Source: an uncultured Bacteroidia bacterium
Lineage (GTDB): Bacteria; Bacteroidota; Bacteroidia; J057; CALAJH01
Assembly: GCA_937922655.1 (NCBI GenBank)
Contig: CALAJH010000015.1
Span: 1 to 64,000, forward strand
Direction: 5' to 3'
DNA length: 64,000 nucleotides
Part shown: in pieces, positions 24,207 to 55,970 of the stretch
How positions within the stretch are numbered: position 1 is the stretch's first letter
Layout of the letters: each line of letters opens with the position of its first letter
Translations under genes and position numbers: made by a program
The notes under the pieces: generated by a model
Seen by the model: only the letters and a program-made list of their open reading frames with translations
Database searches by the model: none
What the model was told of the DNA's origin: nothing

Positions 24207-24242
24207 CCCGTTTCTCCACGCCGCCAAAAAACGGCGCGAAGG

Positions 24243-24250
24243 CAAAGATA
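24243..24250 (-). promoter_or_regulatory. -7 promoter element (TATCTTTG) for the small lipoprotein gene
   Basis: Exact TAnnTTTG on the minus strand, 36 bp before the ATG at 24206. It helps fix the start of that gene. Confidence 0.45.
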
Positions 24251-24570
24251 ACATTCCGCCGAACAAAAGACCGACGCAAGCGTAAAACAAAAAAATCCCA
24301 CGGGCCTCGACATTTTTGTGTTGCAAACGTCGTCGCATCGGGTCGGCCCGAGACGGCCACGCTACCGTAAAAAACAAAGTCCGGAGATAAAAAACGACGC
24401 ATCCAAAATCCGACCCACGAAACGGTCGGTAAGGTGGCAACAAGTGACGACAATCGTGATCATGATAAAATTGTCGCTCAAAGTCCTAAAATTATTTCTC
24501 GGACAAGGGGTTGTTGTTTTAATCCACGCCGACTTTTCATCGTTTAGCCGCGGTACACCGTCGACAACAG

Positions 24571-24604
24571 TTGAACTATTTTTCATTCATTTGAACCATT
24601 TTTC
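24571..24604 (+). repeat. Two direct repeats TTGAAC(T/C)ATTTTTC, 20-bp period
   Basis: Copies at 24571-24584 and 24591-24604 differ at one base and are spaced exactly 20 bp apart, i.e. on the same helix face. They abut the sigma-54 promoter, so they may be sites for an activator or another regulator. Confidence 0.65.
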
Positions 24605-24606
24605 GT

Positions 24607-24621
24607 TGGCACGGGTTTTGC
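24607..24621 (+). promoter_or_regulatory. Sigma-54 (RpoN) -24/-12 promoter
   Basis: TGGCACG at 24607-24613, four bases, then TTGC at 24618-24621. The GG and GC dinucleotides are 10 bp apart as required. The predicted start is about 12 bp after the GC, leaving a leader of about 25 nt to the ATG at 24659. Confidence 0.8.
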
Positions 24622-24658
24622 CCTTGTAAAGAAAATAAAAAAAATATAAAGTTTAAAT

Positions 24659-29081: not shown

Positions 29082-30341
29082 GTGAATAGGGAAGCGGTCA
29101 AACAAAGGTTCGGAATCGTCGGAGAAGACCCCAAATTGATGACGGCGTTGGACGTGGCCATTCAGGTGGCGCCCACCGAGGTTACGGTTTTGGTCGTCGG
29201 CGAAAACGGCTCGGGCAAAGACGTATTTTCCAAAATCATCCACCAACTTTCCAAACGCAAGCACAAGCCGTTTATCGCCGTCAATTGCGGCGCCATCCCC
29301 GAAGGAACGATTGACTCCGAACTTTTCGGTCATGAAAAAGGCTCCTTTACCTCGGCCTACGAGATGCGCAAAGGTTATTTTGAGGAGGCCTCGGGAGGAT
29401 TGATATTTTTGGACGAAATTGCCGAAATGCCGCCGGCGACGCAAGCCCGGCTTCTGCGCGTGCTGGAAAACGGAGAATATTTGCGTGTCGGCAGCAGCAA
29501 GGTGCAAAAAACCGACGTACGCGTCGTTGCCGCCACCAACAAAAACCTTATCGAGGCCATTCGTTTGGGCAAGTTTCGAGAAGACCTCTATTTTCGTTTG
29601 AACACCGTAACGATTTACGTCCCTCCCCTGCGCGAACGCGGTCGCGACATCGAACTGCTTTTCATGTACTTTGCCGACGAATTCGGTCGTCGCTACGGTC
29701 GTAAGCCGGTGTCGCTGACGGCGGACGGATTTGCGGCGTTGCGGGCCTATCATTGGCCGGGCAACGTGCGCGAACTGCGCAATTTCACCGAGCGGGTAAC
29801 GGTTTTGACAAGCGCCGACAAACTCGATGCCCGGGATTTGGCCGACTATTTGCCGTCGCGCGAATCACAACTGCCCGTCGTTTCGTTGAAAGAATCCTCC
29901 CCGCCGCCCGCCGCCGCGAGCATCGAAAACGAACTTCTTTTAAAACTGATGTTGGATTTACGGGCGGAATTGGCGGACATCAAACGTCTGCTTTGGGGAG
30001 GAGCCAACCCGTCCGCCGCCGTCGTTTTGTCCAATACGCCGCCCGACCTGCGGCCCTCACCCGTGGATTTGCGCTCCGCCCCCGTCGGCTACGTCAATTA
30101 TCCGCGCACCGGTTATCTCCCCGAACCCCAATACGAATGGACGGGGCAAGAAATCACGCCGCTCAACGCCGAGGTGCGCGTCGTCGAGTCGGGGTCGCTT
30201 TCGCTCGAAGACAACGAAAAAGAAATGATTAACCGCGCGTTGCAAAAACACAAGGGCAACCGCAAAAAGGCCGCGCTCGAACTCGGTATCTCCGAGCGCA
30301 CCCTTTATCGAAAAATTGGAGCTTACCAACTGGACGTATAA
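29082..30341 (+). CDS. Sigma-54-dependent transcriptional activator (AAA+, Fis-type HTH), no receiver
   Basis: This encodes 419 residues from a GTG start. The AAA+ domain begins almost at once: Walker A GENGSGKD (40-47), the sigma-54 contact loop reading GSFTSA (87-92) where the family has GAFTGA, Walker B LIFLDE (108-112), and the arginine-finger region FREDLYFRLN. A Pro-rich linker follows, then a Fis-type helix-turn-helix (about 380-417, GNRKKAALELGISERTLYRK). It remodels RNA polymerase-sigma-54 at -24/-12 promoters using ATP. There is no N-terminal sensory domain, so control must come from another protein or from abundance. It is followed by rfbB after 1 bp. Confidence 0.94.
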   Translation: MNREAVKQRFGIVGEDPKLMTALDVAIQVAPTEVTVLVVGENGSGKDVFSKIIHQLSKRKHKPFIAVNCGAIPEGTIDSELFGHEKGSFTSAYEMRKGYFEEASGGLIFLDEIAEMPPATQARLLRVLENGEYLRVGSSKVQKTDVRVVAATNKNLIEAIRLGKFREDLYFRLNTVTIYVPPLRERGRDIELLFMYFADEFGRRYGRKPVSLTADGFAALRAYHWPGNVRELRNFTERVTVLTSADKLDARDLADYLPSRESQLPVVSLKESSPPPAAASIENELLLKLMLDLRAELADIKRLLWGGANPSAAVVLSNTPPDLRPSPVDLRSAPVGYVNYPRTGYLPEPQYEWTGQEITPLNAEVRVVESGSLSLEDNEKEMINRALQKHKGNRKKAALELGISERTLYRKIGAYQLDV

Positions 30342-55760: not shown

Positions 55761-55970
55761 TTATATCCTAAAAAACAAATACGCGCCAACGGACACGCGA
55801 AGGCGAAAATATGTTTTTGGCGGGGTGTTTGCATCGTTGCGGCCTTCGGTTGTTGCGGCGCCGATTTTTGGGCAGGCGCGGGGCGGGAGGAGACCGCGGC
55901 GGACGCGGCCTACGTCGGCGGGCGTTCCGGAAAACGCCGCCCAACCCCAAATGAAAATCGAAACGTTCAT
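55761..55970 (-). CDS. Possible small protein gene ahead of the glycosyltransferase
   Basis: An ATG 4 bp after a -7 element (TATTTTTG) opens a 69-codon frame that ends 12 bp before the GTG of the glycosyltransferase. The predicted protein starts with a short hydrophobic stretch (MNVSIFIWGW) and is otherwise Arg/Gly/Pro-rich with no recognised motif. The third-codon base pattern is not clearly different from random GC-rich DNA. It could be a leader peptide or simply the 5' untranslated region. The promoter spacing is the main support. Confidence 0.35.
   Translation of the reverse strand: MNVSIFIWGWAAFSGTPADVGRVRRGLLPPRACPKIGAATTEGRNDANTPPKTYFRLRVSVGAYLFFRI

Follow-up and report, generated by a model that had tools for sequence, protein, structure and literature searches.

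A probable sigma-54 promoter upstream of an exported redoxin gene in an uncultured Bacteroidia bacterium

Results

The window analysed here is a stretch of 64,000 nucleotides from an uncultured Bacteroidia bacterium, whose genome assembly comprises 3.58 Mb in 84 contigs. It contains a gene encoding a redoxin of the AhpC/TSA type (Table 1). The protein matches the AhpC-TSA (1.1e-19) and Redoxin (2.5e-17) families, and its N-terminus resembles a signal peptide, signal peptides being called throughout by a crude hydrophobicity rule. Its nearest proteins come from Bacteroidota; among solved structures, the closest ones include 2ywi and 2cvb, a probable thiol-disulfide isomerase/thioredoxin. In total 60 relatives were searched, none of them from the source genome's own family.

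A motif of the sigma-54 type, TGGCACGGGTTTTGC, occupies positions 24607-24621 upstream of this gene. A preliminary description of the window had read it as TGGCACG-N4-TTGC with an exact GG-N10-GC spacing, and both a script and inspection by eye confirmed this to the base. The same description had correctly placed the site before the redoxin gene, at a distance of 38 bp; by our count the -12 C is separated from the ATG (24659) by 37 bases, and TGG to ATG is 52 bp. The site is intergenic and on the correct strand, and its distance to the start codon suits a sigma-54 promoter. In such promoters the -12 C is expected to precede the transcription start by about 12 nt. The flanks depart from the class consensus, with G instead of T two bases before TGG and C instead of A after TTGC. 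Two 14-bp direct repeats, also described previously, lie just upstream at a spacing of exactly 20 bp, or about 1.9 helical turns, and differ from each other at one position. They extend to 20 nt (24568-24587 and 24588-24607), with 17 of the 20 bases identical.

Table 1. Features of the redoxin upstream region and the candidate regulator gene in the window
Feature	Position	Strand	Remarks
Direct repeat, copy 1, TTGAACTATTTTTC	24571..24584	+	about -62 to -49 relative to predicted start
Direct repeat, copy 2, TTGAACCATTTTTC	24591..24604	+	about -42 to -29 relative to predicted start
-24 element TGGCACG	24607..24613	+	GG at 24608-24609
-12 element TTGC	24618..24621	+	GC at 24620-24621; next base C, mostly A in class sites
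Predicted transcription start, A residues	24632..24634	+	inferred from sigma-54 spacing; A-rich leader seen; leader about 25 nt
Exported AhpC/TSA-type redoxin, 208 aa	24659..25285	+	SCNHCPYV active-site motif
Nested dyad CGACAAT-N15-ATTGTCG	24448..24476	.	about 170 bp 5' of predicted start; lead only
Sigma-54 activator, candidate regulator	29082..30341	+	AAA+ domain, Fis-type HTH, no N-terminal sensor domain, loop GSFTSA

The standing of this site within its own genome was assessed with a sequence-only model, R1, trained on 30 other Bacteroidota sites with the window site left out. Over the window, 24607-24621 was the best match (E 0.0085). Over the whole genome R1 returned seven matches up to E 10, and the window site ranked first (13.0 bits, E 0.47). 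Three of the other matches were intergenic and preceded genes for exported proteins: a Por_Secre_tail protein at 39 bp (contig C30), a DUF4783 protein at 61 bp (C36) and a TPR protein at 194 bp (C58). One was intergenic by the ORF test and had no clear exported target (C55), and the last two, on C49 and C51, were copies of one site inside ORFs. In a related genome (G008, locus L160), an exact site stands upstream of a similar gene, though the site itself lies there within a called ORF. The first rank of the window site depends on the scoring, because the C58 and C30 sites are slightly higher on a plain weight matrix (20.1 and 19.0, compared to 18.95 for the window site). By raw count the exact sigma-54 motif is not enriched in this genome and stays near chance: TGGCACNNNNNTTGC occurs four times, three of them inside ORFs, and with up to one mismatch the motif was found at 202 sites vs 517 for the reversed control. 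Elsewhere in the window, a second sigma-54-like site, TTTTTGGCGGGGTGTTTGCA, was seen at 55818-55832 on the + strand (matrix score 17.0); it precedes, by about 240 bp, a long ORF that resembles a transporter gene and looks SulP-like by eye.

The near-chance count of the exact word in this genome also speaks for another reading, in which the redoxin gene is read by the housekeeping sigma-A and the match to sigma-54 is coincidental. In the available text of PMC6847099, Bacteroidota sigma-A promoters have a -7 consensus TAHHTTTG, with G virtually absent at -10 and -9. Like these promoters, the window has a TTTG at the -33 distance and a TTTG in the -7 region: TTTG at 24590-24593 would serve as the -33 element, followed by N19 and by GGGTTTTG at 24613-24620 as a degenerate -7 element. 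The spacing fits a -33/-7 arrangement, and TTTGC is common to both promoter types. However, measured against that published consensus, GGGTTTTG retains only 4 of the 6 near-invariant -7 bases, carries a G at -10 and lacks the TA and the non-G positions. No complete TAHHTTTG is present in the 451-bp intergenic region (24208-24658); in the window this word lies within 120 bp upstream of 6 of 23 long ORFs, and the reversed word upstream of none of the 23. We consider a sigma-A promoter at this place unlikely.

We then looked at sigma-54 sites across the order and the class. Counting gave little: in the order, with the counts of 22 genomes summed, 24 copies of the 11-base core were found vs 20 of the reversed control, the genomes G005, G007 and G010 together accounting for 13 copies vs 3 control copies. 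Placement gave a clear pattern. A signal-peptide-like ORF of at least 90 residues began 35-75 bp downstream of 21 of 72 distinct exact class sites, compared to 1.26% of 29,600 random positions, 1/72 after strand flipping and 0 to 5/72 after shifting the sites by 80-200 bp; this test is affected by the hand-picking of the G177, G100, G302 and G280 loci, mostly for their many sites, and related sites in it are not independent of one another. In a later set, an exported-type ORF lay 30-90 bp downstream of 11/51 exact sites. Many exact matches are plain chance, since 35 of these 51 fall within long ORFs. Position is informative for the sigma-54 reading; raw counting is no help. The genes behind class sites include those for OEP (TolC-type), LolA, TPR and DUF4476 proteins.

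Some individual class sites are worth recording. Among the matches listed, exact sites precede a thioredoxin gene by 99 bp and a PF06491 (Disulph_isomer) gene by 42 bp in G302, a genome of family f56, and another stands before an HSP90-family gene in G280. The exact sites of family f56 before disulphide isomerase-type, thioredoxin and HSP90-family genes are those of loci L242, L243 and L335 (site 1001 in each). In G007, near-identical stretches on three contigs (L165, L175 and L177) each carry a sigma-54-like site, a pattern that would fit spread of the promoter by a repeat element.

The factors needed to use such a promoter are encoded in the genome. RpoN is present in one copy, and a PF00158 profile search gave 8 places. 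Two are full activators: a response regulator on C55, with a receiver domain and the loop GAFTSA, and the product of 29082-30341, which has no sensor domain and the loop GSFTSA. A match on C30 is an RtcR-like protein, and five were weaker; the three of these inspected by eye were two Clp-like proteins and one Mg-chelatase-like protein. At E below 1e-128, 17 of the 22 genomes of the order, the source genome among them, encode an ortholog of the 29082 product. As judged by eye, the gene follows a miaB-like gene in 10/17 and precedes an lptE-like lipoprotein gene in 9/17. The fifth position of the GAFTGA loop is S in 15/17 of them (GSFTSA or GAFTSA), a residue rated putatively functional in the consulted part of PMC3162934. 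In Flavobacterium psychrophilum, too, according to the available text of PMC9723704, lptE (THC0290_0732) has a gene for a sigma-54 regulator (THC0290_0733) as its neighbour. The preliminary description had named the 29082 product in connection with this promoter region. It is indeed a genuine sigma-54 activator, of a conserved miaB/lptE-linked type, and we found nothing that ties it to the repeats. In one case only (L255, G007:C55), a relative of the redoxin gene directly precedes an ortholog of the activator gene, 27 bp apart; none of the other 108 redoxin loci compared carries the activator within the locus DNA covered.

Distal activator sites are usually located 80-200 bp upstream of a sigma-54 promoter. 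The nested dyad at about -170 was not above shuffles, and no candidate above chance was found upstream. The two repeats had been proposed to bind a repressor or a non-canonical activator. When the 215 bp of intergenic DNA at 24444-24658 were shuffled 5000 times with dinucleotides preserved, a pair matching at 13 of 14 positions at a distance of 14-40 appeared in 11 of the shuffles (p ~0.002), a value to be read knowing that the feature had been chosen among many in the preliminary description. The window as a whole contains 3 pairs of this kind, vs 0-2 in six block shuffles. With this local significance, the in-phase spacing of 20 bp and a position abutting the -24 element, the repeats could be a promoter-proximal operator, on which one or more dimers would bind one helix face from -62 to -29 and either repress sigma-54 polymerase at -24 or activate it from unusually close. 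In the same order, a LolA-like gene in G005 (L171) also has a repeat next to -24 of its sigma-54 promoter. However, a significant tandem repeat was present in only 2 of 34 sigma-54 upstreams, the window and L171, which is the chance rate, and tandem repeats as a general feature of sigma-54 promoters were rejected. The genome search that had been suggested for the 14-mer gave three exact copies, the sole additional one inside overlapping ORFs on C33, and we rejected the repeat as a genome-wide regulatory box; with up to 2 mismatches it has 121 sites vs 64 for the reversed control, and it is absent from the inspected upstreams of the genome's other sigma-54 matches. A TTGAA box near -24 had at first looked like a sigma-54 companion shared in the order; it failed in a larger comparison (near in 5/45 vs far in 15/180 for the old set, window site left out, and 1/23 vs 11/92 for a new set) and was dropped. 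The literature listed on repressors at sigma-54 promoters held nothing directly relevant. The proposed role in repression or activation is thus left unsupported by the sharing and enrichment of the repeats, and we regard a proximal operator as an improbable reading. As a separate observation, L171 (1478-1499) shares the core TGGCACGGGTTTTGCC with the window site, and its tandem repeat, perfect over 11 bp, ends beside the -24 element.

The repeats might instead act through their composition and promote binding of sigma-54 polymerase in the manner of an UP-like or curved AT-rich element. ATTTTTC is present in both copies and AT-rich DNA before -24 is usual in the class, where the last 10 bases average 67% AT. 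On the other side, a 10-11 bp AT periodicity in 24360-24608 was not above shuffles (p 0.64) and gave no curvature signal, which leaves such an element doubtful. The simplest account of these sequences is a local 20-bp tandem duplication of AT-rich DNA, most likely incidental, and the repeats look private to this genome.

We compared 108 related redoxin genes. In 100 of them a co-oriented ORF ends at most 110 bp upstream, and in 90 of these it is thioredoxin-like. R1 with default filters returned no match up to E 10 over 90 loci, and for this reason the loci were scored with the plain matrix; none of the 108 upstreams came near the score of the window site (best 8.9). Upstream of the thioredoxin partners (n=91), the best matches were coding or about chance level. 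The highest (L028, 16.4) falls within the coding sequence of an adjacent gene on the opposite strand, and a match in a Larkinella pair (L131/L132, 12.7) stands 162 bp upstream and has TTAC; both were discarded. We therefore rejected conservation of sigma-54 control at the orthologs, with 0/108 redoxins and no convincing site in the 91 partner upstreams. The promoter looks lineage-specific, because related redoxins usually follow a thioredoxin gene and have no sigma-54 site. A stretch shared by the redoxin upstreams of the window and of G007, TTTGAACC, was near chance by estimate and was also set aside.

In this genome the likely thioredoxin partner, which shares 37% identity with the L079 partner, is found on a different contig, C1; the ORF after it looks FAD-dehydrogenase-like by eye. 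Upstream of the partner, CGGCACGAAATTTGT stands 39 bp from the ATG (L282:1426-1440). The score of this site, 10.16, is reached at 4 of 127,950 window positions, one of which is the redoxin site itself. A complete sigma-A box, TAAATTTG, is also present 69 bp upstream. Shared sigma-54 control of the redoxin and of this partner is thus suggestive, and not proven.

Discussion

The element at 24607-24621 is probably a sigma-54 promoter for the exported redoxin. This reading of the sequence is supported by the rank given by the model, the position of the site, the presence of RpoN and activators, the enrichment of placement in the class and the lack of a complete -7 box upstream. The sigma-54 part of the preliminary description stands on these grounds, and the role it gave to the repeats is not supported.

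We favour, as the likelier account taken whole, a promoter of the following kind. RNA polymerase with sigma-54 would read the -24/-12 elements at 24607-24621 and produce redoxin mRNA from about 24633, with an expected dependence on RpoN. The gene would belong to the known sigma-54 regulon of Bacteroidota, which covers exported proteins, envelope stress and the quality control of proteins. Remodelling of the bound polymerase would fall to one of the two activators, the response regulator on C55 or the 29082 product, acting from solution or from a distal site. In this lineage the redoxin gene appears to have separated from a thioredoxin-redoxin operon of its ancestors and to have acquired a sigma-54 promoter of its own, and the repeats, as a 20-bp tandem duplication upstream of -24, would have at most a modest local effect. 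A more elaborate scenario, in which the ancestral operon split, both genes gained sigma-54 promoters, the duplication made a proximal operator and an activator of the lptE-linked type drives envelope thiol repair, seems very improbable to us.

The regulon proposed here is in line with published work. A start-site map of F. psychrophilum defined a motif, SM4, of the sigma-54 type, and in the available text of this study (PMC9723704) the genes downstream of SM4 include GroES/GroEL, DnaK, GrpE/DnaJ, HtpG, ClpB, Lon and exported proteins, and THC0290_2263, a thioredoxin family protein, stands in Table 2A of TSS-mapped sigma-54 promoters. The window promoter resembles SM4 in having -24/-12 elements before an exported protein, and the redoxin, exported and matching AhpC-TSA/Redoxin, fits this target class, which also holds chaperones and a thioredoxin family protein. 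It differs in its target, an AhpC/TSA redoxin whose gene usually takes second place in a thioredoxin operon, and in being known from sequence. The consulted part of PMC12316311 adds that chaperones are enriched among sigma-54 targets in Bacteroidota, as peroxiredoxins are in proteobacterial classes. Because of these two studies, as far as their available text goes, redox and quality-control genes under sigma-54 in the phylum are already in print, and the view in the preliminary description that redox proteins under RpoN are not well described there has been overtaken, at least for the thioredoxin family protein of PMC9723704. We did not find this particular redoxin named as a sigma-54 target in the literature searched. 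The control of exported and envelope functions also recalls the 'bacterial exterior' regulons of sigma-54 in PMC3162934, in whose main text, as available, the words bacteroid-, redox and thioredoxin are absent.

If the promoter is used as we propose, it would add a thiol-redox gene to the poorly explored sigma-54 regulon of Bacteroidota. Together with the class sites before thioredoxin, disulphide isomerase-type and HSP90-family genes and the chaperone targets reported in the available texts, it points to quality control of proteins and thiols as a theme of sigma-54 in this phylum.
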